Source of the DNA: a virus
DNA length: 34,470 nucleotides
Direction: 5' to 3' (one strand)
Virus record (IMG/VR): IMGVR_UViG_3300028287_000013
Coordinates: 1 to 34,470 of that record
The position numbers were made by a program, and so were the translations under genes. Numbering within the stretch: the stretch's first letter is position 1; each line of letters starts with the position of its first letter. A model generated the notes under the pieces. The model saw only the letters and a program-made list of their open reading frames with translations. It made no database searches and was not told where the DNA came from. Positions 10,936 through 29,652 of the stretch are shown one piece after another.

Positions 10936-13827
10936 ATGACAATAATAATAACATTAAGTTTTGCAGGTAATGAAACAGGTCCTTTTGATCTATATTCTGA
11001 CGCAACTAATTTTGCTACACCGTTTGCACAAGGTATATCTAAAGCAGCTTTATTAGCTGGATTTCAGGTTAATGCACCTGCAGGAACTACTGTTGTTAGA
11101 TTGGATGACTTAAGTGGTCTTTGTTTAAATACTGAAACAGATATTTACACTTGTGCTACACCAAATTGTGATTTTGCTGGAGAGATACTTTGTAATATTA
11201 CAACTACAACTACTACATCTACTCCACCAACAACTACCACAACAACAAGTTATTTCCCAGATCCATTTGGTATACCATGTTTATGGTCTACTGATGGTGG
11301 TAATTCAGGAAGTGTAGCTGTATATAACTTTAATACTAACACAAGTACAACTGTATTAGTTCCCAATGACTTTACTGACACAGTAGGTATTGAAAGACCT
11401 ATTTGTGCTACAGAAGATAAACTATGGTTAGCTAGTATAGTTGATCAAGGTTCTAATCCAACTAATGATAATGATGATAAAGTATACATTAGAGAGTGGA
11501 ATATAGATGGAACTACACCAAATGCTCCTACATTAACTTATGTAAGAGAGATAACAGTTCCTATGGGACAGACTTATGGACATAATCTGGGAGGAACGTC
11601 TGTATGGGCTATGACTGCAATAGATAATAATACACTTATTGTTGGAACAGGTAATAGATATGCTTCAGCACCATCAGAAGGTACTGGTGGTACTAATTCA
11701 ATTTATGTTTCTGAATTTAGTATTGCAGCCGCAGGAAACATTATGATTGACTCAAATGATATATCTTCTGAGTGGGCAGCTCATCCAGGAACTAATGCAA
11801 GTAAGTTGAGTAACCTTACTTATACAAATTCAGGACAACTTGTATTAGGATGGAGATGTGATCTTACCCCTAGTGGAGCTGGTCAGGAATATGCAGTAGG
11901 TAATTATTTAGTCGTATTCCCTGTAACTCCATCTAGTCCTGACTTTAGTATAAACAATCAGGTTATGCCTAGAATATTACTTCAAGATTATGGATTGCCA
12001 GAATTTTCAGCAGGTTATAATGGACCTAAAGATGTACCTTTCTGGGGTGTAAATGGATTAGCACAAGTTTTACAACCAGAAACTTTAGAGGTATACACAG
12101 TAAATCAATCAATTCCTAATAATGTAACATCCAATACTTTTGTAAATAGTTCAAATAACTGGTTAAGTTCAGCTACAAACTGTCCTAACATTAATTTTAT
12201 ATCAGGTGATCCTGACCCTAATTGTGGTCTTACTTATTTCCCTAACCTATTTGATGGTTTGTATGATAGTTCTAATAATAATTACCTAGGACCTCAGACA
12301 TTTACTTACTTTGGAATGACGTGTACAGCAAGTTTATCTAATAACTTAGGTGCTTGGTTTGTAAGCAATACAGATGGTGGTTTCTTAGGATGTAGTGGAC
12401 TTATGTCACCTGATTCTGAGGGAGAAGATGTACTTTTAGGTGTACAAGGTAATGACTTTAATATTACAATTAATTTCCCTGTAGCAGTTAATAATATTCC
12501 AATTAGAGCTAGTGTTCTAAATAGTAGTGCAGACGGTACAAGTGGAGATGTATATTATGTAGAAACTAATGGTGGAACTCCAACACTTTCTATAAATCAA
12601 GGATGTTTAGTTCAAGTTGATGGTAATAAACTGTGGGGTGGAATGGTAAATCCTAATTTACCTGGTACTCCTGTTATTAATAATGCTGGGGATGGAGAGT
12701 TTAAAGTTACTGCTCTGGCTAACTATACATCTATGACTATATATGGTAATGCTCCAACTGGTGGAAAATTATTCTTAGGATGTCGTCCTTTAAATTGCCA
12801 TAATATGGTATACATAAGATATGGAGGATTGGGTTGTTCTGATCCTGAAGAAGCAGGACGTTGTGTAGCTCCACCAAATGTTCCAGTAGCACAAACTTCT
12901 TATCAGCCAATTAAGATGTGGAATAAAACAACAGGTGCAATTACAGAAGTAGGACCTCCACCAGGTGAAGGTTTTGCTTCTGGCGATATTGGTATAGGTA
13001 ATAATATACTTGTAGTATCAGCTAACTTTAACTATCAAAATCCAGCAGCACCTCCTACAGATCAGTGTTTTATAAAATATAATTATGTTAATGAAGCTGA
13101 GGTTCCTACCAATTTAGAATGGGATGAGGTAAGATATGTATTACCTCCTGTCTGGGATCAGTTCAATAACGGTTTTATTCCAAACATTGAAGTAATAAAT
13201 GATAACACAATAGGTTTAACTGTAAGTACAACAAGTGGTGGTTTTGATCCTTTATATGATACTAGATTCTTAGAGTGTACGTTCCCTGAAAATGGTACAG
13301 AAATGATTACTGTAGAAAAGTTTGCACTTGCTGGAGCAGGTGTTAACAATGCTGGTAATGCAGGAGATTTACTAATTACATATAAAGAAGATGGTGTAAC
13401 ACCAAATAAAGTAATAACTGTAGGAGCTGTAGATCCCTACGTTGTTAATAATGTTATAACTGGTCATCTTGCAGTTCAACAATATGATTATGAAACAGGA
13501 GTTTTAGAGGTAAGTACAAGAGCTGAAGACTTTGGGGTTGAGACTGGAGGAGCAGCAGCTATTGCTCTATTTGACGGAAAACTTTATGTAGGTGCTACTA
13601 CATGGGCTACAGTAGATCTAGAGCCTCCATATGCATGGACTGAATTAGTACCTAATGCTCCTGGTACACCTGATGCAGCTGGTGGAGCAAGTCAAATACC
13701 TGGATGTAGAATAAGTGATGGATTTATTGTAGATCCTAATGTATCAACTACAACTACTAGTACTACTCCTAGCCCATCAGGACCCAAGACAATTTGGACA
13801 TGGTTTGAATCAGAAATAAATCAATAA
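10936..13827 (+). CDS. Large fibre: N-terminal GPFxLYSD module plus propeller-like domains
   Basis: The 963-residue protein begins with a ~72-residue module (GPFDLYSD, FATPFAQGIS, GTTVVRLD, then a Cys) found five more times in this window. A Cys pair and Thr linker (residues 89-105) lead to a body of beta repeats, e.g. GGNSGSVAVYNFNT, DNNTLIVGTGN, EYAVGNYLVVFP, GNNILVVSANFN and QQYDYETGVLEVS. These suggest one or two beta-propellers around an inserted beta domain (about residues 400-620, TFTYFGMTCTASL onward). A last Thr/Ser stretch (938-944) precedes a short tail PKTIWTWFESEINQ. The N-terminal module probably docks the fibre on the virion while the propellers contact the host. The C-terminal tail is only 4 nt from the protease gene start, so the two are probably co-translated. 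Confidence 0.6.
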   Translation: MTIIITLSFAGNETGPFDLYSDATNFATPFAQGISKAALLAGFQVNAPAGTTVVRLDDLSGLCLNTETDIYTCATPNCDFAGEILCNITTTTTTSTPPTTTTTTSYFPDPFGIPCLWSTDGGNSGSVAVYNFNTNTSTTVLVPNDFTDTVGIERPICATEDKLWLASIVDQGSNPTNDNDDKVYIREWNIDGTTPNAPTLTYVREITVPMGQTYGHNLGGTSVWAMTAIDNNTLIVGTGNRYASAPSEGTGGTNSIYVSEFSIAAAGNIMIDSNDISSEWAAHPGTNASKLSNLTYTNSGQLVLGWRCDLTPSGAGQEYAVGNYLVVFPVTPSSPDFSINNQVMPRILLQDYGLPEFSAGYNGPKDVPFWGVNGLAQVLQPETLEVYTVNQSIPNNVTSNTFVNSSNNWLSSATNCPNINFISGDPDPNCGLTYFPNLFDGLYDSSNNNYLGPQTFTYFGMTCTASLSNNLGAWFVSNTDGGFLGCSGLMSPDSEGEDVLLGVQGNDFNITINFPVAVNNIPIRASVLNSSADGTSGDVYYVETNGGTPTLSINQGCLVQVDGNKLWGGMVNPNLPGTPVINNAGDGEFKVTALANYTSMTIYGNAPTGGKLFLGCRPLNCHNMVYIRYGGLGCSDPEEAGRCVAPPNVPVAQTSYQPIKMWNKTTGAITEVGPPPGEGFASGDIGIGNNILVVSANFNYQNPAAPPTDQCFIKYNYVNEAEVPTNLEWDEVRYVLPPVWDQFNNGFIPNIEVINDNTIGLTVSTTSGGFDPLYDTRFLECTFPENGTEMITVEKFALAGAGVNNAGNAGDLLITYKEDGVTPNKVITVGAVDPYVVNNVITGHLAVQQYDYETGVLEVSTRAEDFGVETGGAAAIALFDGKLYVGATTWATVDLEPPYAWTELVPNAPGTPDAAGGASQIPGCRISDGFIVDPNVSTTTTSTTPSPSGPKTIWTWFESEINQ
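11200..11250 (+). repeat. Thr linker repeat in 963-aa fibre
   Basis: ACA/ACT/ACC codons encode Thr runs at residues 89-94 and 99-104, interrupted by STPP. It lies between the N-terminal docking-type module and the propeller-like body. A second run is at 13744-13767 before the C-terminal tail. Confidence 0.88.
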
Positions 13828-13830
13828 AAT

Positions 13831-15222
13831 ATGAAAGTAACAAAAGAAATAAAAGATAAAATAGATCATATAATAAAAACCTTTGCAAAAGGTAATACGA
13901 CTATTGTTTCTGTTGGACTAGGTCAAAAGGTTTCTGCTGGTAAAGTTACAGGAGATGCTGCTATTGTAATTGGAGTTACTGAAAAGAAACCAATTGAAGA
14001 ATTGTCTTCTGAGGAAATTATGCCAAGTGAAGTTACTGTAGGTAATGAAGTTATTAAGATAGATATAATGCAACAGTCTCCAGTTCAACTCTTTGCTACA
14101 TGTTCTGATTGTGGAGGATGGAATGGATCTAACTCTGGACAATTTACAAACAGACAATTTACTAGACCTTTAAGAGGAGGAGTAACAATGACTTCTATAA
14201 ACAATACTCCTTCTGTTGGTACATTAGGAACATTTGTACAAGATATAGCATCAGGAGCTATAATAGCACTTACTAATAATCACGTAACTATAGAAAATCC
14301 TACATACACAAGCGATAGAAACTTAGCTGCTGTTACTGTAGACAATGATTATGATCCAATAAATAGAATATATCAAGGTACAGAAGCAGTTGGTCAGGTT
14401 CAACCTGTTAATGAAGTAGGAATAAGTTTAAGATATGTTCCAATTCATTTAACTAATACAGGATTTGTTAATCAAGTGGATGCTGCAATATACTCTGTAA
14501 ACTTTCAAGACATTGAGACTGAAAGTGTACCTTCATCACAACAATATGCATCATGGCAACCTATAGGTCTTGAAAGTGTAATAACTAATCAAAATCCTCC
14601 GTTTGCTACAACAGCTGAATTAGATGATATATATAATACAAACCCAGACATTTGGACATCAGGAAGAACTTCAGGATCTAGAGGTAAAGGAGTATGTGGA
14701 CACCTAAGAGTGTATCAGGCACCTGTTGCTTCTAATGTTGCTACTGCTATTGGGACTGCAAGCTACAATGATCTCATTGCTGTAATTCGACCAGACGATA
14801 CTACTCCAGAATCTCAACAACCAGGATGTTTAAATCCAGGATTACCAGGAGACTCAGGTTCTGCTGTATATGCTGAATTTGGTGGTGTTAAGAAATTAAT
14901 AGGTCTACTTTTTGCTGGTACTTGTAATATGGCAATGATGCCTGCAGAATATAATGGTAACCCATGTTGCTCTGGTACACCAGGAGTAAATTCGTGTAGT
15001 ACAATTTTTTATCTTTGTAGAATAGATAGAATTGCTGAACAGCTAGGGATTGAATGGTGGGATGCTGCAGCTGCAAATCAATACACTGTTAACAAAGATA
15101 CTATGGAGTATGTAACAGAAGCTGGAGGAAGCGATCAAAGAACTAAACTCTGTAACGGTAAGTTACATTACCAAGCAGGATTAACTAATACATTAAATAA
15201 CCCTTGTATACCAACACCTTAA
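13831..15222 (+). CDS. Trypsin-like serine protease in fibre island
   Basis: The 463-residue product carries a complete chymotrypsin-fold catalytic triad in the expected order: His151 in LTNNHV, Asp217 in QVDAAIY and Ser342 in LPGDSGSAVY. The oxyanion motif GDSGS is intact. Residues 1-85 form a small alpha/beta domain (IVSVGLGQKV, AIVIGVTEKKP) like the N-terminal part of other trypsin-like peptidases, including NAL1-type proteins. There is no signal peptide, fitting a virion or intracellular protein. The ~100 residues after Ser342 contain several Cys (NPCCSGT, SCSTIFYLC). Standing between two fibre genes, it may cleave fibre precursors, digest surface protein of the host, or be a structural domain that kept its active site. 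The triad makes an active enzyme likely; the substrate is unknown. Confidence 0.82.
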   Translation: MKVTKEIKDKIDHIIKTFAKGNTTIVSVGLGQKVSAGKVTGDAAIVIGVTEKKPIEELSSEEIMPSEVTVGNEVIKIDIMQQSPVQLFATCSDCGGWNGSNSGQFTNRQFTRPLRGGVTMTSINNTPSVGTLGTFVQDIASGAIIALTNNHVTIENPTYTSDRNLAAVTVDNDYDPINRIYQGTEAVGQVQPVNEVGISLRYVPIHLTNTGFVNQVDAAIYSVNFQDIETESVPSSQQYASWQPIGLESVITNQNPPFATTAELDDIYNTNPDIWTSGRTSGSRGKGVCGHLRVYQAPVASNVATAIGTASYNDLIAVIRPDDTTPESQQPGCLNPGLPGDSGSAVYAEFGGVKKLIGLLFAGTCNMAMMPAEYNGNPCCSGTPGVNSCSTIFYLCRIDRIAEQLGIEWWDAAAANQYTVNKDTMEYVTEAGGSDQRTKLCNGKLHYQAGLTNTLNNPCIPTP

Positions 15223-15236
15223 AAATATAAAATATC

Positions 15237-16394
15237 ATGTCAAATAATTGCTCAAATTGCTATAACGGATGTACTGAAGTATCTTCAGATAAATGCGTTA
15301 AATATACAGGGGTAGATGTCCCTGTCTTAGGAATAAAACATGGAGACTCTCTATCGTTTGTAGAACAATCTCTAATAACTTATTTATCATCAACTCTTGA
15401 TGGAACAGGGGTATTTCCTATAATTCCACCATCTATAATATGTCCTACAGTACAGAGTAACTTAGATGATTGTAATCCATTATCTTTAAATAATTATTTA
15501 GAGGGCATAATTAAATCATTGTGTCAAATTGAAGAAACTATAGGTGTTATTCAAGAAGAGGTACCTACTGATCCATATATACTAGGATGTCTTAGTGTTC
15601 CAGGTGCCACTGATGATCCTAATGCTACAAGCACTGATACACAAGCTGTAATACAAGCTGTAATTAATAAGGTTTGTGAAGTTGAGAAGAATCTAAATGA
15701 CTTTGTAACATATGTAAATAATACTTTTGTTGCAATTTCAGATATAAATACATACATTGAAAACTACATAAATAATGATCCAACTCAAACTTTAATTAAC
15801 AACAGAATGGTTCCCTTTTCTGCTACACCATATTTTGGAAGCTTAGGTAACTTTGATGCTTCTGGTGCTGGTATAGGTGATTGGGATAGAATATTTTTAT
15901 GTAATGGTGCTAATGGAACTCCAGATCTTAGAGGAAGAGTTGTTGTAGCATCTACAACAGGAATGCCTGGAGGTGGTGGTCTTGATCCAGCTGTAGTTCC
16001 AGTACTTGGACAAGTTCCAGAATGGAGTTTAGGTACTACTAGTGGAGCGTATAGAGTAACGCTAGACTCATCTGAAATACCTCCACATACACATGTTTCA
16101 ACTGTAACCTCTAGTCTTACTCCAAGTGCTCACAGTCACAAGATGGTTTCAATGGGTACTGCTAACACTCAAGATCCAGTTCAACCTGACCAACAAGTAA
16201 GACAAGCTTATTCAACTGGTGGTAATTTAGGATACGCAATGAGAGGAACATCTTCTCCAGCTACAAACGGATTAACAAGTGAAGTTACTCAAACTTTAAA
16301 TGTTGGTGTATCACTAGCAGATACAGGAGGTGGACAAGATCATGCTAACTGGCAACCTGGATACGGAGCATATTATATAATTTACATACCTTAA
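15237..16394 (+). CDS. Tail fibre with collar-type C-terminal domain
   Basis: The 385-residue protein starts with a Cys-rich segment (NNCSNCYNGC), then a helical stretch (about residues 85-190, with repeated coiled-coil-like heptads such as VINKVCEVEKNLNDF). The C-terminal half is a phage tail-collar/short-tail-fibre-like domain: WDRIFLCNG, GTPDLRGR (residues 227-234), two HxH motifs (284-286 and 299-301) and the closing WQPGYGAYYIIYIP. In T4-type short fibres such HxH sites bind metal on the trimer axis, and the same could hold here. The domain mediates receptor binding in many phages. The protein probably trimerises through its helical part. It lies between the protease and the Cys-rich coiled-coil protein, all within tight spacing. 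Confidence 0.78.
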   Translation: MSNNCSNCYNGCTEVSSDKCVKYTGVDVPVLGIKHGDSLSFVEQSLITYLSSTLDGTGVFPIIPPSIICPTVQSNLDDCNPLSLNNYLEGIIKSLCQIEETIGVIQEEVPTDPYILGCLSVPGATDDPNATSTDTQAVIQAVINKVCEVEKNLNDFVTYVNNTFVAISDINTYIENYINNDPTQTLINNRMVPFSATPYFGSLGNFDASGAGIGDWDRIFLCNGANGTPDLRGRVVVASTTGMPGGGGLDPAVVPVLGQVPEWSLGTTSGAYRVTLDSSEIPPHTHVSTVTSSLTPSAHSHKMVSMGTANTQDPVQPDQQVRQAYSTGGNLGYAMRGTSSPATNGLTSEVTQTLNVGVSLADTGGGQDHANWQPGYGAYYIIYIP

Positions 16395-16406
16395 AATAAA
16401 AACAAA

Positions 16407-16733
16407 ATGGCATACTTACCTGTAAACCCTTGCTGCACTGATGTAGTTTTAAATAGCCCTTGTGGATGTACATCAAATTGTAACTGTTCTACAAACTCAT
16501 GTGGAACAAATGGCCCTCTGTCAAGCACAGTTGTGTATGATGGTCCTACAACTCCATGTACAAACATAGAAGCTTGTGACACATTGAATGTAGCATTATC
16601 AAAAATAGATGCTCTTCTTTGTGCATTACAAGTTCAACAAGTTAAAAACACTCAAGAGATTGCTGCAATGAAAGCTCAAATAATTGATATAAATAATCAA
16701 ATAACAAATATTAATAATAACTGTTGCTCATAA
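16407..16733 (+). CDS. Cys-rich coiled-coil fibre accessory protein
   Basis: The 108-residue protein has a Cys-dense N-terminus (NPCCTDVV, CGCTSNCNCSTNSCG) and a helical C-terminal half with heptad spacing (ALSKIDALLCALQVQQVKN, then IAAMKAQIIDINNQI) ending in NNNCCS. The coil likely trimerises, with cysteines at both ends that could form disulfides or bind metal. It immediately follows the collar-type fibre and precedes the stand-alone GPFxLYSD-like proteins, so a role as a fibre stem, clamp or adaptor is inferred. The segment DTLNVALSKIDALLCAL is of a type seen in other phage fibre stems; no enzymatic motif is present. Confidence 0.6.
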   Translation: MAYLPVNPCCTDVVLNSPCGCTSNCNCSTNSCGTNGPLSSTVVYDGPTTPCTNIEACDTLNVALSKIDALLCALQVQQVKNTQEIAAMKAQIIDINNQITNINNNCCS

Positions 16734-16735
16734 TT

Positions 16736-16954
16736 ATGACTGTACTTTTAACAATACCTACTATAGGTACCGATGCTGATAACTTTGAACTTTATTCAGA
16801 TAAAGATAACTTTAGTGATCCTTTTGAAACAGGTATATCTAGAGCAGATTTATTAATTGGATATACTAGTTCTGTTGTACCAGACTATTCAAGTATAGTA
16901 AGAGTTACATCTAGCTTTAAGTGTATTAATTCTTTAGATATTACACTACAATAA
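16736..16954 (+). CDS. Stand-alone GPFxLYSD-like module protein
   Basis: This 72-residue protein consists of one module: a beta start (TVLLTIPTIG), FELYSDKDNF, PFETGIS, a leucine-glycine-tyrosine segment (DLLIGYTSS), SSIVRVTS and a closing Cys. An upstream in-frame TTG at 16724 lies inside the previous gene; ATG at 16736, two bases after that gene's stop, is preferred. Five other copies occur in this window. The module is too small to be an enzyme and probably is an adaptor that binds the same virion partner as the fibre N-termini. Confidence 0.7.
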   Translation: MTVLLTIPTIGTDADNFELYSDKDNFSDPFETGISRADLLIGYTSSVVPDYSSIVRVTSSFKCINSLDITLQ

Positions 16955-16981
16955 ATTAAAATAAACACAACAATATAAGAT

Positions 16982-18094
16982 ATGTTAATACAAATAACCA
17001 TAACTATTCCTCCGTCTGGCATTGCTGGACCGTTTGATTTATTTTCAGATGCAGATGGATATGTTTCCCCTTTTGAAACACAAGTACCAGCTACAGAATT
17101 AGAGTCTGGTTATGTTGTAGAACTTCCTATAGGTGCAACTATTATTAGAGTTTGCTCTGTAGGTGACTGTGAAAATTGTATTGACATACCAACTAATTGC
17201 CCAACTACTACAACAACATCATCTAGTAGTACAACAACTACAAGTACTAGTAGTACATCTACTACTACATCAACTAGTTCAACAACAACAACAAGCACTA
17301 CAGCACCACCTCCTTATAAGTTTAACTGGCAGTTGCAAAGTCAAACTCCATCAACTATAGGAACTGTAAATCTTAAAATAACTGTAGACGGAATATCTGT
17401 TGTAAATTCTACAATAACTGTAGGTAATACTATACAATCTGGTCAATTACTTATCCAAGCTGGAGCTATTGTACAAGCAACTATGACTAATGAAAAAGTT
17501 GGATCTTGGAATTTTGGAAACAAGGTAGTTAAAAATGGAAGTTTATATCAACCAAATGATATATGTAATCCTTGTGTTGATGAATTAATAACTCCACTTT
17601 TCCAATCTTATGTAATGGAATCTTTCAATCAAGACTGGTTTTTCGATGGTGTAGTTATAGTTCCAACCACAACTACTACTACAAGTTCTTCAAGTACAAG
17701 TACAACAACAAGTACAAGTACATCTAGTACCACAACTACTACAACTACGTGTGATTGTAGTTTAAATGGTCTTTCTGCGGTATATGTAGTACCACCAACT
17801 ACTACAACAACAACAAGTTCTAATCCAATTGTAGATCCAGGAGGAATATCATCTCAAACAAATCCAAATGCATCAGATTGTTTCATAGCAATAGATAGTA
17901 TTTGTTATATACAACATCAAGCAGTAGGAACAATAAGTGTAAATGATAGAATATTTAATAATCCTGGAGCAACTAGTCCATTTAATGGAAATGGGAACTA
18001 CTATAAAATACGACTTAATACAAATGCTAGTGAATACTCTGCTAGAGTAAACAGTAGCGGATATATATTAGCTCCAATAGCAATATGTTTCTAA
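16982..18094 (+). CDS. Modular fibre: N-terminal GPFxLYSD module, two beta domains, three Thr linkers
   Basis: The 370-residue protein has the N-terminal module (AGPFDLFSDADGY, PFETQVP, ATIIRVCS, CENC), a Thr/Ser linker (residues 75-107), a beta domain (~112-226, YKFNWQLQSQ to DWFFDGVV), a second Thr/Ser linker (229-256), a short Cys segment (CDCSLNGLSAVYVVPP), a third linker and a final ~80-residue domain (DCFIAIDSICYIQH to APIAICF). A pattern like CDCSLNGLSAV-PP followed by Thr also appears in the muzzle-type protein. It is a typical bead-on-string fibre or decoration protein. The final domain is the likely tip and the module the likely base. The specific target is unknown. Confidence 0.62.
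   Translation: MLIQITITIPPSGIAGPFDLFSDADGYVSPFETQVPATELESGYVVELPIGATIIRVCSVGDCENCIDIPTNCPTTTTTSSSSTTTTSTSSTSTTTSTSSTTTTSTTAPPPYKFNWQLQSQTPSTIGTVNLKITVDGISVVNSTITVGNTIQSGQLLIQAGAIVQATMTNEKVGSWNFGNKVVKNGSLYQPNDICNPCVDELITPLFQSYVMESFNQDWFFDGVVIVPTTTTTTSSSSTSTTTSTSTSSTTTTTTTCDCSLNGLSAVYVVPPTTTTTTSSNPIVDPGGISSQTNPNASDCFIAIDSICYIQHQAVGTISVNDRIFNNPGATSPFNGNGNYYKIRLNTNASEYSARVNSSGYILAPIAICF
17204..17302 (+). repeat. Thr/Ser linker repeat, first in 370-aa fibre
   Basis: ACA/ACT/AGT/TCT codons encode residues 75-107, all Thr or Ser. It is the longest uninterrupted linker in the window and sits between the docking-type module and the first beta domain. Confidence 0.92.
17666..17749 (+). repeat. Thr/Ser linker repeat, second in 370-aa fibre
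   Basis: It encodes residues 229-256, again only Thr and Ser, with a short third run at 17798-17821. The nucleotide pattern (ACA/ACT/AGT) resembles the first linker and the one in the VWA adhesin, which would allow recombination or slippage. Confidence 0.92.
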
Positions 18095-18110
18095 ATAAAA
18101 AAAATAAACT

Positions 18111-18344
18111 ATGGCAGCATCAAATGTAAGAATTAGCTTAACTTCAGCAGGAGTCTGTTCTGGACCTGTAAATATATTTTCAAATGCAGATGGTTTTACA
18201 ACACCATTTGCAACAGGTATCTCAATAGCAATATTAACAGGACTCTTTGGTTTTTTAACACCTGTTCCTGCTGGTACAACTATAATTAGAGTTCAGAACG
18301 CAAATTTGAATTGTCAAAATTACGAACAAGTACTAATAACATAA
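18111..18344 (+). CDS. Stand-alone GPFxLYSD-like module protein
   Basis: This 77-residue protein is a divergent copy of the module: SGPVNIFSNADGF, PFATGIS, then PAGTTIIRV and a terminal Cys-containing segment (LNCQNYEQV). It ends 3 nt before the next module protein. The F/Y-S-D/N-x-D core and TTIIRV are kept, while the middle is more hydrophobic (ILTGLFGFLTP). Its closest partners are the copies at 16736 and 18348. Confidence 0.68.
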   Translation: MAASNVRISLTSAGVCSGPVNIFSNADGFTTPFATGISIAILTGLFGFLTPVPAGTTIIRVQNANLNCQNYEQVLIT

Positions 18345-18347
18345 CAA

Positions 18348-18572
18348 ATGACAGGAGCAATACAATTTTCACAACTAGGTGTAGATACAGGACCTTTTTA
18401 CTTGTACTCAGATATAAATGACTACACAGCACCAATTGAATCAGATATAACTAGAGATCAATTACTAGCAGGTTATCCAACAGATCAAATACCTGACAAT
18501 ACAAAAATTATTAGAGTAGTCTCTTTTGGAAGCTGTATAAATACTGTAGAAATAATAGTGGAACCTCAATAA
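18348..18572 (+). CDS. Stand-alone GPFxLYSD-like module protein
   Basis: This 74-residue protein has TGPFYLYSDINDY, IESDITRDQLLAGY, NTKIIRVVS and a closing Cys (GSCINTVEI). It is the last gene of the fibre island and is followed within 35 nt by a strong terminator. Its start has only AACAA upstream and it is coupled to the previous gene. It is probably an adaptor or cap of the same type as its two stand-alone relatives. Confidence 0.68.
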   Translation: MTGAIQFSQLGVDTGPFYLYSDINDYTAPIESDITRDQLLAGYPTDQIPDNTKIIRVVSFGSCINTVEIIVEPQ

Positions 18573-18606
18573 TAAAAAGTCTTGTTTTGTTGGTTTTACA
18601 AGGCTT

Positions 18607-18638: not shown

Positions 18639-18639
18639 A

Positions 18640-18744: not shown

Positions 18745-19986
18745 ATGTCTTACTCTGAAGATTTACTTGTCCAGTTAAAATCATTACTAGCTTGGAAGAA
18801 AAGTAAAAAGTTTTATGCTGATAAATTAAATATTACAGAAGATGAAGTAAATGAGTTACTGAAAGAAATAAAAAAGCAAGATGAAGATCCTGCAGAAAAC
18901 TTTATTAAAGAGGCTGGTAAACTTAATGAGCAAATTGAGTTTGTAAAAAAAGTAAACAATGAAAAGGGAACAATAGAGAGCACAATAACTCTTGACTTTG
19001 AGCCAAAGAATGATATAGAGCTAGCAGAGTTACACAAGATAGATTTAGAAAAGTATATAATTACTAACTATTGGTCTAAAGTTCTACCTACTGGAAAGTT
19101 TACATCTTCTATCTTTTCTAAAAGAAAAGGTCCACAAGATTACACAGCTGATGATTTCAGCAAGTTCTTAGAGAACTATAAATCAAACTACATTCCTATT
19201 CCTGCTCCTGAGATGGAGCTAAAACCTCTGGTAGATATTGAGTTATCTTTATCAGATTATCACTTAGCTAAAAGATATGTTGATGGAGATAATGATCCAC
19301 AAACTAGAGCTAATAGATTTGTGCAAATAGCAGAAGCTTTAACTCATAAAGTTAGATCTATTTATAATATAAATAAAGTGGTGTTTCCTATATCTAATGA
19401 TTTCTTTCATACAGATAATTATCAGAACACTACAACTAATGGTACTCCTCAAGATATAATATTAGATTATGCATCAGAGTACGAGATGGGATTTAATCTT
19501 TTAGTAGATACTATTAAAATGTTAAAGACCAATTCTAAACATGTTGAGGTTATTTTAGTACAAGGTAATCACGATAGAACTAAATCATATTACTTAGCCC
19601 ATGCGCTAGATATATTCTTTAAAAAAGATGATAATATATCATTTGTTAGAGAAGAAGGATTGATTAAAGCAACTGTAGTGGGTAATACGTTTATTGGATT
19701 CCATCATGGTAACTGTAAGATTGATGCCTTACCTTTACTATTTGCTACACATCCAACTTATAGTAAGTGGTTTGGAGATGCTACGTATAGAGAAGTTCAT
19801 ACAGGTGACAAGCATCATTATATGGCAAAGGAAATAAAAGGAGTTAGGATACAACAAATGCCTAGTTTATCTGGAACAGATAGGTGGCATAAAGATAATA
19901 ATTTTGTACATAGTGTACGAGCTGCTCTAGCTTTGGTTTATGATTTTAAAGTAGGCAAAGTAGCTGAATTTGAAGAAAGAATATAA
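18745..19986 (+). CDS. Calcineurin-like metallophosphoesterase with N-terminal helical domain
   Basis: The 413-residue protein has the dimetal phosphoesterase signatures in order: D171-Y-H173 (in SLSDYHLAK), D219 in SNDFFHTDN, G274-N-H-D277 (QGNHDRTK), a histidine pair at 320-321 (GFHHGN) and H352-T-G-D-K-H357-H358. Residues 1-50 form a separate helical region (LAWKKSKKFYADKLNITEDEVNELL) with the look of a helix-turn-helix. Enzymes of this family hydrolyse phosphodiesters or phosphomonoesters, including nucleic acid ends (Mre11/SbcD) and nucleotides. It is the first gene after the mid-window terminator and promoter, in a block of neck and tail proteins, so a DNA-processing or virion-associated role is possible. 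The substrate cannot be deduced. Alternatives are a 2',3'-cyclic nucleotide or RNA phosphatase. Confidence 0.85.
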   Translation: MSYSEDLLVQLKSLLAWKKSKKFYADKLNITEDEVNELLKEIKKQDEDPAENFIKEAGKLNEQIEFVKKVNNEKGTIESTITLDFEPKNDIELAELHKIDLEKYIITNYWSKVLPTGKFTSSIFSKRKGPQDYTADDFSKFLENYKSNYIPIPAPEMELKPLVDIELSLSDYHLAKRYVDGDNDPQTRANRFVQIAEALTHKVRSIYNINKVVFPISNDFFHTDNYQNTTTNGTPQDIILDYASEYEMGFNLLVDTIKMLKTNSKHVEVILVQGNHDRTKSYYLAHALDIFFKKDDNISFVREEGLIKATVVGNTFIGFHHGNCKIDALPLLFATHPTYSKWFGDATYREVHTGDKHHYMAKEIKGVRIQQMPSLSGTDRWHKDNNFVHSVRAALALVYDFKVGKVAEFEERI

Positions 19987-19988: not shown

Positions 19989-20717
19989 ATGGCAACATTG
20001 AGAAAATTAGTTTCAGATATAAGATCTACACATAAGATCTTATCTACTGATGCGCTTATAACTGATAGAGCAATAGCATCTGAAGTTAGAGTTAACGCAT
20101 TGACTTTAATTAAAAGAGAAACTAATATAAGAAAACTCTGGGCCAGTGATACTTTATTTACTACTATTCCTTGTTTGGAAATGGTTGAAGTCCCTATATC
20201 TGAATGTTGTGAGTTTGCTGATGAGTGTACAGTTGCAAGAACAAAATATAAACTCCCAAGAATGTCTGAAGGAAATTACCAATATGTAATTCAAGGTGTA
20301 TATTCTATAAATGCTATGGGAGGAAAGGGTACTAAATTAAAAGAGATAACAATAAATAGATACTTAAATTTATTAAAGTTACCAATAATTAAAAAGCAAA
20401 GTTACTTTTGGATATCTAATGGTTATATGTACATTAACAATCCTTTATTAAAGTCAATAAGATTAGCTGCTTTATTTGAAGAAGATGTACCTAATGAAAT
20501 AATGTATCCAGATTGTGATTGTGGAAGTTCTAGTTATACTGACGAGGATTACTGTAAGAACCCTTTAGATAAAGAGTATGCTCTTCCAGGTTACTTAGAA
20601 CAACAAGTACTAGCTATGACATCTACAAAACTTTTATCTACATACTTCCAACTTAAAGATGACATGAGCAATGAAGGTATAGATGGTCAAGCTCCTAATG
20701 CACAACCTACTAATTAA
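19989..20717 (+). CDS. Neck/ring-type structural protein with Cys motifs
   Basis: The 242-residue product starts 2 nt after the phosphoesterase stop. Visible segments are a helical N-terminus (TLRKLVSDIRSTHK), a Cys region (SECCEFADECTVARTKYKLP, residues ~72-91), a beta-rich middle and an acidic Cys segment (PDCDCGSSS) followed by a C-terminal helix (YLEQQVLAMTSTKLLSTYF). The CC-x5-C-xxAR-KLP arrangement is one I associate with a conserved protein of crAss-like phages coded beside the IHF-like and tail tubular genes, consistent with a neck ring component. The name is inferred from this context. The last 15 residues are polar and likely disordered. Confidence 0.55.
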   Translation: MATLRKLVSDIRSTHKILSTDALITDRAIASEVRVNALTLIKRETNIRKLWASDTLFTTIPCLEMVEVPISECCEFADECTVARTKYKLPRMSEGNYQYVIQGVYSINAMGGKGTKLKEITINRYLNLLKLPIIKKQSYFWISNGYMYINNPLLKSIRLAALFEEDVPNEIMYPDCDCGSSSYTDEDYCKNPLDKEYALPGYLEQQVLAMTSTKLLSTYFQLKDDMSNEGIDGQAPNAQPTN

Positions 20718-21211: not shown

Positions 21212-22186
21212 ATGTCATACTATTATAAATATAATTTCGTATCACCAGAGCCTCTATATGCAACTGTAAAAGAAGAACTTAAAAGTTACTTTGATACTGG
21301 TGCAGTAGATGATTTGTTATTCCCTACATATTTAGACAAATGTTTAAAGAAGCTGGGAAGAACTACTTACATAATTAGTGAACAAGTTTTATTTATAGAA
21401 GACTTTGAAGCAAGATTACCAGATAACTTTCATGCAGTTAGAGAAGCGTGGATGTGTACATCTATACCAGGCAACCCTTATCCTTCTGCTACATCATTTT
21501 ATTCACAAGCAGCTAACGCAACAACAATACAAATATCTCCACTAACAATAGGAGGAACTCCTTGTAATAATCCTGAGTGTCAACATCCAAGTTGTGATGG
21601 TACGTGTATGCCTGAATTAGTTCAAGCTGTATACAAAACAAACAATGAAATAGCTAGATCATATAGACATAGCTATTTATTAAAACCAGGAAATATATCT
21701 ACTAGAAAACAATGCGATGTAAATTATAGAAGTGACTGGAACAATTTTGCTCCACCAGTTCGTGAGTTTACTCCTGGTTCTGCTACTTATGATTCTTTTG
21801 ATATTAGAGACAATAAGTTTGTCACTAATTTTAGAAATGGTGTAGTTCATTTATTGTTTTATTCTGCTGAGTATGATGATATAGGTAACCAATTGGTTCC
21901 TGATAACTATCGTATAGCTGAATATGTAGAAGCTTTTATTAAATTTAAAGTGTTTGAAATATTAACTAATCAAACAAATGATGAAACTTTTAATCAGCTT
22001 CAACAGAAGTTAGCATACTATAAGCAGGAATATAATGAAAAATATATAGAGGCAGAGATTGAGGTTAAAAAACAAACACCTTGGGAAAAGCAAAGAAGAA
22101 TTAAAAAAGATTTAAACAGGTTCAATATGTATGAGTTACCTAATCGAACCAATAGATACGGAAGTAGAAGAAGACGCAATAATTAA
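21212..22186 (+). CDS. Tail tubular / P22 gp4-like protein
   Basis: The 324-residue product is directly before the muzzle-type giant gene (5 nt gap), the position of the P22 gp4-like tail tubular protein in crAss-like phages. It has an N-terminal helical part (LYATVKEELKSYFDTGAVDD, FPTYLDKCLKKLG), a Cys-dense insertion at about residues 114-131 (PCNNPECQHPSCDGTCMPE) that may bind zinc, a beta segment and a C-terminal helical tail (EVKKQTPWEKQRRIKKDLNRF) ending in a basic NRYGSRRRRNN. Such proteins form the ring joining portal to tail. The C-terminal Arg cluster may contact DNA. The Cys insertion is unusual for the family. Confidence 0.6.
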   Translation: MSYYYKYNFVSPEPLYATVKEELKSYFDTGAVDDLLFPTYLDKCLKKLGRTTYIISEQVLFIEDFEARLPDNFHAVREAWMCTSIPGNPYPSATSFYSQAANATTIQISPLTIGGTPCNNPECQHPSCDGTCMPELVQAVYKTNNEIARSYRHSYLLKPGNISTRKQCDVNYRSDWNNFAPPVREFTPGSATYDSFDIRDNKFVTNFRNGVVHLLFYSAEYDDIGNQLVPDNYRIAEYVEAFIKFKVFEILTNQTNDETFNQLQQKLAYYKQEYNEKYIEAEIEVKKQTPWEKQRRIKKDLNRFNMYELPNRTNRYGSRRRRNN

Positions 22187-22191
22187 GAACT

Positions 22192-25100: not shown

Positions 25101-28100
25101 AAGAGATATTGACTTTGCAAGATACTTAATACCTGGAGTACAATCCCTTGCACCAAATGAATATAATGTAAACAATTGGAATAGAGAAAGCTCAGTGTTT
25201 ATAAAAACAATTGAGAATAGAGATTTTACAAATAATTCTAGTGTAAGTTACATACCTTTTCCAAGTGATACGAATAGTTTGAAAACTCCTTCTGGAGAAC
25301 CTTCTATTATAGATAAATCAAGATATACTATTGGTAGTGCTGGAACATGTGGAACTCCTGAAAAAGAATTTGACCTGTCTGTTGTATCATATTATGCATC
25401 AATGAAAAATATTGTAGTTAATCAATACGGACAGATATACTCTTACAACACTGTAGACACAGGTTATCAAGCTCCTAAACAAACTGGTGGAACATCAACA
25501 GTGTTTGGAGGAGATACATTTATTTCTAGATTTGCATATAAAACAAAGCTTCCATTTTTTATTGATAATAGAGTAGGTGCTCCTGTTGATAGTGATGTGT
25601 TCTTTGATGAGATTGGAAACATAGCATATCCTAGGTTTTGGCATTCTTCAAGATCAATATTACAAGATGCTCAAATTAATGACGTTACAGCTACAGCTTT
25701 CTTTTCAACTAAAGCTCACAATTTGGATTGTGCTAATGATCCATCTAAAATAGCTAGTGGCACAGGAGGTTCTTATAGAACTTTTTATGATGGGTTTATG
25801 TATTTGTTTGCATACGGTATTCCTAGTTTCTATTGTGAGACTGTATATAATACAGATTTACGTCAAGCATTTAATAATAAAGAAGGAGACTTCTGGCCTC
25901 ATGTAAGTAGCGGTATTCCTGATGATTGGTTACAAGAAACAAACGTACCTATTGTTCAAGATAACACATATTATTACAATGTAACATTTTCTAAACAAAA
26001 TAAAGAAAATGTATTTACACATCTTCCTCCTGACTGGAAAGAAGATTTATGCTACACAGTTTATCCTTTTAGAGCTATTTATTCTGATGCTGCTACTACA
26101 AGTGCTGATGTTAGGGTAAACAACTGGCTAGTTTATAGAGCATTATCTTTTCATGATTTTCCACAAAACTATGGGAATCTTACATCATTAGATGGTATTC
26201 AAAACAAAGCGATACTTGCACGATTTGAGAATAAGTCACTGTTGTATAACAACTTACTAACTATTGATACTAGTAATCCTCAAGCGGCTTATATAGGTAA
26301 CCCTAATCTATTTGATTCATCTCCACCTATTGATTTTGCTGAAACAGATCTTGGATATGTAGGAGCTCAAAATAAGTTTTTATTAAAGATACCTCAAGGG
26401 CAAATAACTGTAGATGCAAAAAGAGGTCAAGTGTTTTTAGTGAAAGGTGGTCAGGTGGCAGACCTTACTGGATATGGTTCTGGTGTAAATAGATTTATGA
26501 CAGATCACTTACCTTTTAAAATATTACAACACTTTCCTAATGTAGATACTGACAATCATTTTAATGGTATTGGATTACATGGTGTATATGATAGTAAGTT
26601 TGAAAGAATAATTATTACTAAACTTGATTACACACCTCTTAGTGATGATATTAAATATAATGAAGAAACAGGAGATTTTTATATTGAGCTAGCAACAGGT
26701 GCATCCTCATTTAGTTCAAAGGTACCTACACCAATACAGTCAGTTTGTAATGAGTTTACAAGTTTACCTTTTAGTGAAAGTATAAGTGTAAAATATATTC
26801 CTTGTGGTACTGAGTGGGTAGTACAAAGTATAAATCTTCAATGTGATTTAGAGAATGGAGAGTTTTGTAAACCGCTTGTGTTATGTGCTAGAGAGATTTT
26901 ATCTTCAGATGTAAGAATGCTTCCAAGTGGTAATTGTGATATTGATTTAACAACTACAACAACTACTACTGGTAAAGAAGAAATTACAACTTCAACTACT
27001 ACTACTGTTGAAGATTCAATTGGAGATGATACAACAACAACTACTACAACAATATCTAGAGAGACAGATCCACCAATAAGAATAATTTCTTTAGATGATG
27101 AAAGTTATTTCTGTAATAAGTCTTGGACAATGTCTTTTGATTTTAATAGTAACAGTTGGATATCGTTTCACTCATACCTACCTAATTTTTACGTAGGGGA
27201 AAACAATTTTTATTACTCAGGTACAAACACATGCTGTGTAACACAAACACCTTTATCAGTAATAGCAGGGCCAGTTAAAAGTCCTTCAATTATTACAACT
27301 TCAACCACTACTACAAGTAATCCTTTATTTCCAACTACAACAACTACTACTACAGTTAAAGATTGTATTATGAAAGGTGGATTCTTTATACCAACAGACT
27401 GTGAACTTTCAGGTGGTACTGGAATTATAACTGTTCCTCCTACTACCACTACTACAATATGTGCAAGACCTTCAAATCTTAATGAATTATATTTTGGAGA
27501 AGGTTATCAAATTGTTGGAGATTCTCCACAACTTACAACAGCAAGTAAAGATGATGCTTGTGGAGCTGCTAATTTTATTATGGCTAATCCAGCTGTAGCT
27601 CTTTCTATTCAAACGCAAGCAATGGTAGAGTATGGTGAGGGAAAGACTTTAGGAGGCACATACGTTTACTTAGGGTGGGGAACATCAGACTGTACTTATA
27701 TTTCTGATGGTTGGTATTTTGTGTTAGATGAAAGTGAATTTCCGTATACCTATCAAGTTGCAAATGGTCAAATTGTAAATTATGAAACTTGTGATTGTTC
27801 AACATTAACAACTACTACAACAATAACTCCTTCTATAAATGAGTGCTGTTCTATGCTAACAACTACAGGTACTACTGTTACTGCTTACAATTTTAATGAA
27901 GAACCAAGGGTTTTAAATTTACCAGAATTTACATCATCTTACGGTTTAGGAATAACTGTTAATAAAGTTTGGTCTGTATATAGTAATGGAATACAAGAAT
28001 GGGATATTACAATATCTCCTTTTAGTTCAACTTATATAGAGCAAATTGCTTTACCTGCAGGATTTAGTACTACATTTGGAATAACAGCATTAGATGACTC

Positions 28101-28764
28101 AACGTTAATAGGAACAAATACATCTGCCTCTCCTTCTAGTATTGTACAGATTGATCTAGTTAGACAAACAGGTGTTGCAACAGTTGCAACGAGTACAACA
28201 AAAATTACTTTACCATTAGGTAGAGTAATGATTAGTAATGTTTTAACTGTTAAAAATCAAGACAAGGTAGTATTTGTAAATCAAGATACAGGATCATCAG
28301 ATTATTATGTTTCAGAATATTTTTATTCAACAGGTGTATTAAATACAGAAGTGAATATAGGAGCAGTAAATGCAGTGGCAATTATGGATTGTGCGTGTGT
28401 ATTATATTTATTTACACCATCAGGTGATTTTAAAATTTTATCTCCTGGACCAAATTACACTCTAATTGATGGCCCTTCCTCTATAGGTTTTAATTTAATA
28501 TCAGCATCTCAAATACCAACTTGTTCAAATCAAGGATTAACAAATCCAACAACTACTAGTACTACTACTGGCGCACCTACTACTACCACCACTACTACAA
28601 TATCAGCAACCTGTAATGAGTATGAGGTGACTGGACCAACAGCAATCTATTACACTAATTGCTTCGGTCAACAAGAATCAATATCTGTAGGATCTGGGCA
28701 AACCTTAAGAGTTTGTGCAAGTGTAGCAATACCAGGAGCAACATTAATAGGACCGTGTACATAA
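22192..28764 (+). CDS. Muzzle/stabilization (P22 gp10-like) protein with fibre-like C-terminal extension
   Basis: The 2190-residue protein opens with a Ser/Thr/Gly-rich segment and then TGLNLDSSINQVGPGRLTYA and YQNEPGNE (residues 30-72), a signature of the P22 gp10-like stabilization proteins of crAss-like phages that plug the tail end. The long beta-rich body runs to about residue 1585. A clear break follows: from ~1587 the protein switches to Thr linkers (26950-27051, 27295-27354, 28549-28599), Cys-containing domains and a propeller-like region (~1890-2110, with STGVLNTEVN and ALDDSTLIG echoes of the 963-aa fibre), ending in a ~50-residue beta domain with paired Cys (CNEYEV, CFGQQE, RVCASV, GPCT). 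The C-terminal ~600 residues look acquired from fibre genes. The TAATAA stop area leads into another module fibre. Confidence 0.75.
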   Translation: MAKDQSNGTSGTSGNSRRTNITMNSATARTGLNLDSSINQVGPGRLTYALNAAIENFDSSSVNYQNEPGNELCLVFTTGYKLIGEHFIPEKRKNIFFLSNPDTGGSEIGYMDNNDCVYRVLVNAPCLNFNTQHPIPKIVHRITNCTTEIYWTDGINSRRYLDIENIPYKLIAGTPSCDPVYGNELDCNQIKLQPNFSIPSLEVSKVENVGSLVAGTYQFAVQYADASGNELTSYYSVTNPTPIADEFVTTVNFDYPVGKSIIISVNDLDITGQFQYFNLAVIKTINNISSAELVGTYNIEEPFKDITYTGADQTSIQLAMIDIFEKFPYYDIAQDVTAVQDVLVWDNLTSIDRINYQSIANQIELKWETYRIPASENYADELNATHLRGYMRDEVYAFEIVFLLRNGKQTDGFHIPGREVNQPIDNPQDIPSTNSDFIGEPDYYIGDVGYKSYWKVYNTATVSEFSSGYDPTDASYKGPYQYGEFAFWESTEEYPCQDDVWGDLAGQKIRHHKFPDVLVSPIIENGQIVYDNDQIVPTMQDDAVFPLGVRISNSELDSLISTSDLSDDLKDDIVGYKIIRADRGTNKSVIAKGMLRNVNTYTRDEQEYYYPNYPYNDLGSDPYVSASNNAWLAESEPYLLYLPSTETIFSWEDFLGGGDGFIEITINDEQGVYEYTSATNGRVAEATIELDTRIEICSLTRPTALLGRILIGPGNYDVWRGRSYNPGISPFVRGWGFNWRDPFTDDNSAYEDKYEWLSGFTAYIGGETQYGRVSIDGPTPYETGASNGGPFESGVSIVKMDRIEMPDAEVTSSTKGRISTVGCKVEKPVKPITELNDEEGLSYRQIFNSPDTSFGQPFLGNILKLESVMFGAGKGHFAAVKDNAKYKLLSLEAQQDALDSAIEVADLTNPFNAGVCFTVYQTYLTIYINGITRRNYAQSYNSRASYDYSFDIGNNKFGSGSGTSFVGIKQRDIDFARYLIPGVQSLAPNEYNVNNWNRESSVFIKTIENRDFTNNSSVSYIPFPSDTNSLKTPSGEPSIIDKSRYTIGSAGTCGTPEKEFDLSVVSYYASMKNIVVNQYGQIYSYNTVDTGYQAPKQTGGTSTVFGGDTFISRFAYKTKLPFFIDNRVGAPVDSDVFFDEIGNIAYPRFWHSSRSILQDAQINDVTATAFFSTKAHNLDCANDPSKIASGTGGSYRTFYDGFMYLFAYGIPSFYCETVYNTDLRQAFNNKEGDFWPHVSSGIPDDWLQETNVPIVQDNTYYYNVTFSKQNKENVFTHLPPDWKEDLCYTVYPFRAIYSDAATTSADVRVNNWLVYRALSFHDFPQNYGNLTSLDGIQNKAILARFENKSLLYNNLLTIDTSNPQAAYIGNPNLFDSSPPIDFAETDLGYVGAQNKFLLKIPQGQITVDAKRGQVFLVKGGQVADLTGYGSGVNRFMTDHLPFKILQHFPNVDTDNHFNGIGLHGVYDSKFERIIITKLDYTPLSDDIKYNEETGDFYIELATGASSFSSKVPTPIQSVCNEFTSLPFSESISVKYIPCGTEWVVQSINLQCDLENGEFCKPLVLCAREILSSDVRMLPSGNCDIDLTTTTTTTGKEEITTSTTTTVEDSIGDDTTTTTTTISRETDPPIRIISLDDESYFCNKSWTMSFDFNSNSWISFHSYLPNFYVGENNFYYSGTNTCCVTQTPLSVIAGPVKSPSIITTSTTTTSNPLFPTTTTTTTVKDCIMKGGFFIPTDCELSGGTGIITVPPTTTTTICARPSNLNELYFGEGYQIVGDSPQLTTASKDDACGAANFIMANPAVALSIQTQAMVEYGEGKTLGGTYVYLGWGTSDCTYISDGWYFVLDESEFPYTYQVANGQIVNYETCDCSTLTTTTTITPSINECCSMLTTTGTTVTAYNFNEEPRVLNLPEFTSSYGLGITVNKVWSVYSNGIQEWDITISPFSSTYIEQIALPAGFSTTFGITALDDSTLIGTNTSASPSSIVQIDLVRQTGVATVATSTTKITLPLGRVMISNVLTVKNQDKVVFVNQDTGSSDYYVSEYFYSTGVLNTEVNIGAVNAVAIMDCACVLYLFTPSGDFKILSPGPNYTLIDGPSSIGFNLISASQIPTCSNQGLTNPTTTSTTTGAPTTTTTTTISATCNEYEVTGPTAIYYTNCFGQQESISVGSGQTLRVCASVAIPGATLIGPCT
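26950..27051 (+). repeat. Thr linker repeat at muzzle/fibre boundary
   Basis: Three Thr runs with TGKEEI, VEDSIGDD spacers encode residues 1587-1620. It marks the start of the fibre-like extension of the 2190-aa protein. Confidence 0.9.
28549..28599 (+). repeat. Thr linker repeat near C-terminus of muzzle-type protein
   Basis: Thr runs with S and GAP interruptions precede the final ~50-residue Cys domain. Another run at 27295-27354 splits a neighbouring domain pair. Confidence 0.9.
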
Positions 28765-28776
28765 TAAAATAAACAG

Positions 28777-29652
28777 ATGGCAAACAACACTAAAGCAATA
28801 AATATAAAAATAACAGAGTCTGCACCTGGAGCAGGACCTTTTAATATACTAGACGAAAGTGGAAATGTATTAAAAGGCGATGTGTCTCTAGATGAGCTAG
28901 TGTCTGGTATTGCTTTAAATGTACCTGGAAATGATATTAGTATATCAATTACTTCCTCTGGAAATTGTACGTTTGAGCAATATGTACCATTAAAAGAAAT
29001 AGAGAATGAAGATTGGGTAAACTCTGATTATACAACAGCTATAACAGGATGCCTCTGGACACATTTAAAAGACACATCTATATATAATTACTACTATGGA
29101 AACATCGAACCTTATATTATAGAGTATCCATTTTCTTATACATATCATGATGAGATATTACAGAATGTAAAAGACTACAGTAAAGTTTATAATTATCTAC
29201 CAGAGGCTTCAGGATCTTTTGATACAAATAAAAAGATACAAGTTGACAACCAATGGTTTAATAAAGCTGTTTTATATAATGGTCAACAATCAACAGGTGT
29301 ATTAAATCTAGTACCAAAACCTGAAAATAACTTATCGTCTTATATGCAGTACCCTATTTTAAATACTGATAGTAAAACTATTACCTACGCAAAGACAGAT
29401 AGCTTTTATCAATATAATACATTTTGGGCTCTTCAAAAAAATGATGAGTTACCTTTGTTCTTAAGTTCATGTAAATCATTATCTTTAGACAAGGAGGTTA
29501 ATCAGACTAATATGGATTACGGATCTAGATCATTTAGAAAGTCTCCACTTAGAGCTAAGAATTTAAAAGTTAGACACATACTTGACAACAGGTCAACAAC
29601 ACATATAGTAAGTCAATTTATAATCACACCATCACAAATATCATATAAGTAA
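28777..29652 (+). CDS. Fibre/structural protein with N-terminal GPFxLYSD-like module
   Basis: The 291-residue product begins with the most divergent of the six modules (GAGPFNILDESGN, LKGDVSLDELVSGI, NDISISITSSGNC). There is no Thr linker; the module runs straight into a Tyr- and Asn-rich beta body (CLWTHLKDTSIYNYYYGNIE, WFNKAVLYNGQQSTGVLNL). The C-terminus (FRKSPLRAKNLKVRHILDN, then HIVSQFIITPSQI) is basic and hydrophobic. The stop codon overlaps the next start (TAATG at 29650-29654), indicating translational coupling to the large multidomain gene. It may anchor something at the tail via its module. The body is not recognised. Confidence 0.5.
   Translation: MANNTKAINIKITESAPGAGPFNILDESGNVLKGDVSLDELVSGIALNVPGNDISISITSSGNCTFEQYVPLKEIENEDWVNSDYTTAITGCLWTHLKDTSIYNYYYGNIEPYIIEYPFSYTYHDEILQNVKDYSKVYNYLPEASGSFDTNKKIQVDNQWFNKAVLYNGQQSTGVLNLVPKPENNLSSYMQYPILNTDSKTITYAKTDSFYQYNTFWALQKNDELPLFLSSCKSLSLDKEVNQTNMDYGSRSFRKSPLRAKNLKVRHILDNRSTTHIVSQFIITPSQISYK

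Follow-up and report, generated by a model that had tools for sequence, protein, structure and literature searches.

A virus record of 34,470 bases from IMG/VR (IMGVR_UViG_3300028287_000013; the whole stretch analyzed is referred to as the window) encodes six copies of a module of about 70 residues, three as free-standing proteins and three at the N-termini of longer ones. The module is a real domain, new within the literature searched and spread through one crAss-like phage family that is known only from metagenomes. Sequence, gene position and predicted fold suggest that it is an N-terminal docking (anchor) domain of tail appendages. About an even chance (roughly 0.5) is given to this assignment, and docking is the best reading of the module, if an unproven one.

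All six copies (Table 1) lie in frame at the positions given by the original prediction, which was made from the window alone. Hidden Markov models (HMMs) were built from five copies at a time and searched against 395 six-frame segments of the window, each of at least 30 residues. Each copy was found by the model of the other five, five of them strongly and the copy at 28777 weakly. The best non-member segment over the six runs had an E-value of 0.047, and a seventh copy was not detected in the window. Three copies are indeed whole proteins, of 72, 77 and 74 aa. The motifs that had been listed as common to all six are less uniform than proposed. GPF is retained in the 28777 type (90 to 97% per residue) and is poorly kept at the 16736 position (G and P, 39%), and the 28777 type shows LYSD, PF and TTIIRV weakly or not at all. 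The three larger proteins had all been called fibres, and this description suits those at 10936 and 16982, which are appendage- or fibre-like. The 28777 protein was ruled out as a fibre, being the separately made C-terminal part, about 220 residues, of the muzzle, the tail-gate protein (it matches the end of phrog_15100).

Homologs of the module are numerous in relatives of the window. The loci fetched from IMG/VR were the best 80 of 598 around the major capsid protein (MCP) gene, the best 80 of 596 around the 18745 gene (genes are named here by their first position in the window), and 14 more around the 18348 module. The HMM was iterated over 176 records, consisting of the window and 175 loci, five of which (L001-L005) are the window itself; the loci overlap, with several per contig, so that there are fewer independent genes than raw counts such as 458 suggest. 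The module was identified in 458 open reading frames (ORFs), representing 302 distinct domain sequences. In all 458 it is N-terminal, occurs once, lies on the plus (gene) strand and starts no later than residue 43 of the stop-to-stop frame. A later set of 44 records, some of which share contigs with the others, gave 51 matches, and all 51 are N-terminal, on the plus strand and single, with starts no later than residue 46. Among 435 closed ORFs the module is followed by fewer than 15 residues in 167, by 15 to 99 in 49 and by at least 100 in 219. These data agree with the proposal of one module, strictly N-terminal, that is free-standing or in many cases precedes a stalk rich in Thr and Ser and then a tip that varies. 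The 20 long records contain 2 to 6 copies each. In every one of them, one or more copies lie on frames of 288 to 316 residues, which match the 28777 protein in length, and length is the only criterion of identification here. In cultured relatives, tblastn of two window modules against 50,697 phage records gave no match (limit E 1), and one consensus-like module gave a best match of about E 1 against the same records. The module HMM reached no better than E 1.1 on the L176 stretch of Lbo-JY46 and found none in L177-L179; in all, no module was found in the stretches of crAss001, Lbo-JY46 and phi17:2 that were searched.

The module genes occupy a conserved block. In relatives with the full set the order is the collar-type fibre 15237, the Cys-rich 16407, then 16736, 16982, 18111, 18348 and the 18745 gene, with the 10936 gene before or inside the block; other relatives have fewer modules. 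Starting from the 18745-type gene and moving upstream, the positions of successive module genes are labeled up1 to up5, and these labels shift where modules are fewer. Free modules, defined at these positions as those followed by fewer than 25 residues, make up 35 of 85 at up1, 39 of 61 at up2, 9 of 57 at up3, 34 of 42 at up4 and 1 of 19 at up5. The median passenger is 301 residues at up3 and 897 at up5, and the up2 module, free in the window, can bear a passenger in relatives (L090 and L091, 179 and 183 aa in all). A tree of 265 distinct modules requires 21 changes of gene position, compared with a mean of 155.5 in 50 shuffles, and 17 changes between the free and fused states, compared with 85.7 when shuffled. 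Because the labels shift in genomes with fewer modules, the value of 21 is if anything too high. The module paralogs are therefore old and mostly keep their own position and subtype, while the passenger comes and goes in place. Free mixing of modules between positions finds no support in this tree. The idea of interchangeable fibres sharing one virion site is likewise unsupported, given these counts and the finding that the 28777 copy heads a muzzle part.

Among 108 loci that include the 3 kb preceding the 18745-type gene, eight lack a module in that stretch (L026, L030, L038, L043, L048, L070, L076 and L078). Their 18745-type genes are 28 to 33% identical to that of the window. Six records with such a module-less block were searched, and five have two modules elsewhere. 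The L030 record has no module match, and it ends about where the muzzle begins.

How far passengers are exchanged depends on the position. Identities were taken from sampled pairs, up to 200 per comparison. At up1 the median identity is 0.48 for the module and 0.28 for the passenger, with 57% of 200 pairs below 0.30, and at up2 the values are 0.46 and 0.32. Passengers at up3 and up5 stay homologous (module 0.64 and passenger 0.45 at up3, 0.70 and 0.46 at up5), and the relation is reversed for the muzzle copy, in which the module has a median identity of 0.41 and the muzzle part 0.68. The same module type at up1 is followed by many unrelated passengers or by none, although mixed passenger clusters may partly reflect shifts of the position labels. 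Free replacement of passengers is thus confined to some positions, namely up1 and partly up2. Among passengers of at least 100 residues, a Thr/Ser stalk is present in the 80 residues after the module in 47 of 47 at up3, 4 of 4 at up4, 13 of 18 at up5, 13 of 21 at up2 and 12 of 37 at up1.

AlphaFold modeling of the 72-aa free module at 16736 with 96 related sequences gave a mean predicted local distance difference test (pLDDT) score of 94.8, and the order of strands (E) and one short helix (H) is E E E H E E E. The 28777 model has the same order of strands and helix, with means of 72 to 89 pLDDT over 10-residue blocks in residues 1-90 and just 21 to 46 in the muzzle part; the alignment is shallow (27 rows). 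Unrelated folds were therefore not found in the two copies folded. The module is confidently predicted to be an Ig/FnIII-like beta-sandwich that folds alone. A Foldseek search of viral models returned five matches below E 0.001, all to uncharacterized proteins of Virus NIOZ-UU157, which is uncultured (taxid 2763269). These proteins have 77, 417, 939, 77 and 287 aa, and their matches to the module model have E-values of 3e-6 to 4e-4, TM scores (query) of 0.84 to 0.94 and 19 to 40% identity. Their sizes are nearly the same set as those of the window, a likeness drawn from the proteins and not from gene order. No match better than E 0.5 was obtained with Foldseek in the PDB. The best VIA match has a Z score of 5.9, with a root mean square deviation of 2.5 A over 68 residues, and the C-terminal domain of RemZ follows with Z 5.8; FnIII, pectate-lyase and type 9 secretion C-terminal domains are among the matches with Z 5 to 5.9, and one chain from the tail complex of phage N4 has Z 4.7. 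Z scores below 8, as here, may reflect no more than a common arrangement. A sequence search of the PDB gave no match to the module, and the short copies have no Pfam match at E 1 or better. Among 96 family members no convincing Pfam or PHROG match was found, only scattered families with one member each. A match of 2 of the 96 to phrog_26864 (best E 3e-4), a family with no named function, is weak and was not used, and phmmer matches of the 28777 protein to the BRI1 receptor (E 0.004) and to ADP-ribosyltransferases (E at least 0.15) were judged to be due to chance.

The closing Cys claimed for the module is real. In the numbering of the 16736 module it is residue 63, and it is present in 94% of the 265 distinct modules with a gene position, beside G42 (99%) and L39 (96%). 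Cys63 is found in 100% of the modules at five of the six positions and in 81% at the sixth. The muzzle type is invariant at S59 and Cys63 (both 100%) and has G61 in 97%. Cys63 is the sole Cys in 29 of 30 muzzle-type, 35 of 36 up4, 13 of 13 up5 and 67 of 83 up1 modules; those at up2 and up3 have up to three Cys. The conserved Cys is thus usually unpaired. Cys makes up 1 to 3% of most tail and appendage proteins encoded by the window, with 11% in 16407 and 0.8% in the ring-like 5386, and 0 to 0.5% of the portal, scaffold, MCP, 4389, 18745 and 29652 proteins. The loop that precedes the final strand of an FnIII-type fold is situated at the N-terminal pole, remote from the C-terminus, and the Cys loop of the module would therefore face the attachment site. 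Disulfides stabilize the tail barrel and the fibre hubs of crAss001 (excerpt of PMC10172136).

The muzzle of the window is made as two chains, unlike gp44 of crAss001, which is one. A single chain is usual among the cultured phages compared, although it does not define the crassvirus tail. The nearest cultured muzzles are those of Cellulophaga and Flavobacterium phages and of Leptolyngbya phage Lbo-JY46. Besides its PHROG match (Table 1) the muzzle has tblastn matches to phi17:2 and csAssE-Sib, and a profile of three muzzle sequences (L151, Lbo-JY46 and phi17:2) aligns with gp44 in hhalign at 96% probability (residues 23-394), indicating that the N-terminal region of the muzzle is homologous in crAss001 and the window. 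Homology of chain 1 to the fused muzzle of the L151 locus stops near residue 1677 and is followed by a Thr-rich extension of about 510 aa. In L151 the same C-terminal sequence that follows the 28777 module runs on directly from the rest of the muzzle within a single ORF of 1645 aa that has no module, and in phi17:2 the matching stretch lies inside a 2289-aa muzzle. Of 37 ORFs with most of the muzzle C-terminal part, 36 are separate, all 36 start with the module, and the one that is fused lacks it. A second set has some contigs in common with the first; in it 39 of 41 are separate, all with a module, and two are fused without it (Lbo-JY46 and L181, the latter from the same contig as L151). Chain 1 of split muzzles mostly runs 219 to 559 residues past the last homology to L151; in five split loci the extension is 9 to 126 residues, at least two of these being cut by the end of the locus. 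In L221, L222, L223 and L225 a gene for module, stalk and tip is followed directly by the gene for module and muzzle part, so that a fibre gene sits in the muzzle break. The module is thereby linked with the muzzle and not only with the block between the tail-hub place and the R2 gene. The C-terminus of chain 1 itself (27100-28764) has Thr-rich linkers and then a different short terminal segment containing Cys, which may be a second recurring module.

The window is a fragment of a crAss-like phage covering the tail gene cluster, because its profiles are in register with the genes of crAss001. The gene order is portal, scaffold-like, MCP, 4389, 5386, 6144, 7371, 8056 and the appendage block (10936-18572), followed by 18745, 19989, 20729, 21212, the muzzle at 22192, 28777 and 29652. 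The scaffold corresponds to gp31 and 4389 to gp33, and the order shared with crAss001 is gp31, MCP, gp33, R4/R5, the THA place, R2, the IHF-like gene, R1 and muzzle. For the 7371 profile gp38 is the best among the crAss001 proteins tried, and the assignment is made mainly via gene order. More than one ring protein gene is present (19989 and 21212), and multiple ring protein genes are described as conserved and defining for crassvirus tails (excerpt of PMC10172136). The MCP matches phrog_11589 (E 3e-35) and is not visibly related to gp32, the hhalign probability being just 0.6% over 375 columns. No tRNA gene was found in the 34,470 bases. The MCP gene (2675-4240) is 92 to 100% identical in the best 80 contigs of at least 598, and the fibre genes are strongly divergent. 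The single MCP match in genome_contigs is L180, a 13.4-kb contig in a Tissierellales metagenome-assembled genome; this assignment is taken as a binning error, the host link is doubtful and no host is claimed.

If the module docks, its N-terminal pole with the Cys-bearing loop would face the virion and be locked there by a disulfide, and its C-terminus would point outwards to the passenger. Free-standing copies would each occupy a place of their own and act there as adaptors or minimal appendages. The copy on the split muzzle would put the domain beside the tail gate, and appendages borne by the muzzle and by the hub would then share an attachment layer. A wider proposal is held only tentatively, and is more doubtful than docking as such. 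It supposes that a disulfide-locking Ig-like plug could be a general N-terminal tail connector, with appendages added, lost and swapped at dedicated places, and that the tail gate may have been cut into two reassembling chains so that fibres could be hung at the tail tip.

Several observations weigh against docking. In the same genome pairs the amino acid divergence of the modules is 2.5 to 6.4 times that of the two ring proteins, and the muzzle-type module diverges 5.1-fold compared with 2.4-fold for its muzzle part; such fast divergence is not expected of a tightly docked domain. Median ratios of nonsynonymous to synonymous substitution (dN/dS, NG86), calculated from sampled pairs (up to 120 per set) and inflated by saturation at low identity and by low GC content, are 0.84 for muzzle-type, 0.71 for up2, 0.59 for up1 and 0.26 to 0.36 for up3, up4 and up5 modules. 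The corresponding values are 0.57 for the fibre 15237, 0.38 to 0.63 for passengers, 0.16 for the muzzle part and 0.08 for both rings and MCP, the range over rings, 20729, MCP, 5386, 7371, 16407 and 18745 being 0.05 to 0.15. Relative divergence is the safer of the two measures. Pairs of the window with L106 and L088 gave module ratios of 0 to 1.4 from few changes, the low ones belonging to the 10936 and 16982 modules. The modules evolve like fibre tips, not like the tail barrel. In addition, 16 of 83 up1 modules have no Cys, the stalk is present in just 12 of the 37 up1 passengers and in none of 29 muzzle passengers, and L151 has one module protein and no muzzle module, so pairing of modules at the muzzle cannot be obligatory.

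The rates at up1, up2 and the muzzle copy are no less compatible with display than with docking, and a displayed Ig-like domain is a serious rival to docking. By this account the modules would, much like Hoc-type or BACON-type domains, face the host or its glycans from free N-termini, and the free copies would decorate the virion. The dN/dS values of the muzzle-type, up2 and up1 modules are in the range of the fibre 15237 and the passengers, and the relative divergence points the same way. Ig-like domains of crassvirus muzzles may aid docking to the cell surface, and head fibres contain Ig-like domains too (excerpt of PMC10136315). The inflation of dN/dS lessens the force of these values, and modules at up3 and up5 are better conserved than the passengers behind them, with the lower dN/dS noted above for up3 to up5. 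Moreover, the module is strictly N-terminal and often has a stalk and tip behind it, which makes the C-terminal tip the natural receptor-binding end. Display is judged less likely than docking. Quite unlikely is a third account, in which the module is a cap for the folding, solubility or oligomerization of long, stalked or split chains and has no dedicated virion site. It would suit the 28777 protein, whose muzzle part is not folded alone in the prediction while its first 90 residues are well predicted, and the presence of the module in every split muzzle examined and its absence from the fused ones. The low pLDDT may, however, only reflect the shallow alignment, and a cap leaves the 167 free-standing copies among 435 and the position-specific subtypes unexplained. 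Anchoring of head fibres on capsid hexons, rather than of tail appendages, was also considered, since N-termini of crAss001 head fibres lie in hexon pockets (excerpt of PMC10172136) and these fibres have Ig-like domains (excerpt of PMC10136315). The module genes are located at the muzzle and in the interval from tail hub to R2, the second muzzle chain itself includes one copy, and comparison of the module profile with gp21 and gp29 gave no match; head anchoring is very unlikely.

Phage receptor-binding proteins are known that combine a shared N-terminal anchor with exchangeable C-terminal tips. Docking would resemble these anchors of other tailed phages in having a conserved N-terminal domain and, at up1 and partly at up2, exchangeable C-terminal tips, and would differ in having up to six paralogs per record, some of them free-standing and one on a muzzle chain. 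In crAss001 it is residues 1-26 of gp22 that the fibre hubs hold (excerpt of PMC10172136). Identity of the module with the crAss001 tail hub proteins THA or THB was not supported by synteny, the THA place being held by 7371 and that of THB perhaps by the N-terminus of 8056, whose profile did not match gp39 among its best four. For the module itself no relationship to gp38 or gp39 was detected (hhalign probabilities 0.6 and 0.3), and 22 other crAss001 or phi17:2 proteins also gave no match. No description of the module or of such a connector was found in the crassvirus literature, searched by title and start of abstract, and the module is not mentioned in the available excerpts of PMC10172136, PMC10136315, PMC10537231 and PMC13037465. 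If the module is a docking unit, it would provide a sequence handle for many tail appendages and receptor-binding tips, and the two-chain muzzle would be a test case for a conserved tail-gate protein that is split yet works.

Table 1. Modules and tail genes of the window. Positions are those of the 34,470-base record. E-values for modules are from HMMs of the other five copies.
Feature	Position	Strand	Match or content
Module, N-terminus of 963-aa protein (up5)	10936..11136	+	HMM E 4e-19
963-aa module-bearing appendage protein	10936..13827	+	module, Thr-rich linker, large passenger
Free-standing module, 72 aa (up4)	16736..16954	+	HMM E 2e-19
Module, N-terminus of 370-aa fibre-like protein (up3)	16982..17194	+	HMM E 2e-17
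370-aa protein	16982..18094	+	module, Thr/Ser stalk, tip
Free-standing module, 77 aa (up2)	18111..18344	+	HMM E 9e-17
Free-standing module, 74 aa (up1)	18348..18572	+	HMM E 7e-21
Divergent module, N-terminus of separate muzzle C-terminal chain	28777..28998	+	HMM E 2e-4
Muzzle C-terminal part, about 217 aa	28999..29652	+	phrog_15100 positions 1564-1781 of 1783
Muzzle chain 1, 2190 aa	22192..28764	+	phrog_37948, E 1e-103
R4/R5-like	5386		hhalign to crAss001 gp34, weak, E 0.003
Gene at the place of crAss001 THA (gp38)	7371..7937	+	hhalign E 0.0013, 26 columns, 18% probability
Gene directly 3' of module block	18745..19986	+	phrog_704 'DNA repair exonuclease', E 8e-52
Ring protein R2 equivalent	19989..20717	+	hhalign to gp40, 196 columns, E 8e-5, 61% probability
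20729 gene	between 19989 and 21212		hhalign to gp42, E 1e-8
Putative ring protein R1 equivalent	21212..22186	+	hhalign to gp43, 87 columns, E 4e-4, 35% probability; weak, with gene order

Several neighboring genes have features of their own. The product of 18745 is presumably metallophosphoesterase-like. The first 100 or so residues of the 8056-10911 product form a Cys-rich domain (10 Cys in 130 residues), which is free-standing (88 to 159 aa) in many relatives and is joined via a Thr linker to a large passenger in the window. The 16407-16733 product, 108 aa with 12 Cys, is a coiled coil by eye, and it has 340 to 719 aa in some relatives. Inside the appendage block, 13831-15222 is a protease-like gene (phrog_20754, E 3.5e-15), the relatives of which encode 440 to 1282 aa. 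The 29652-34163 gene encodes a 1503-aa protein without Cys, and its C-terminal part contains HELSH, which we take to be an HExxH-like motif.

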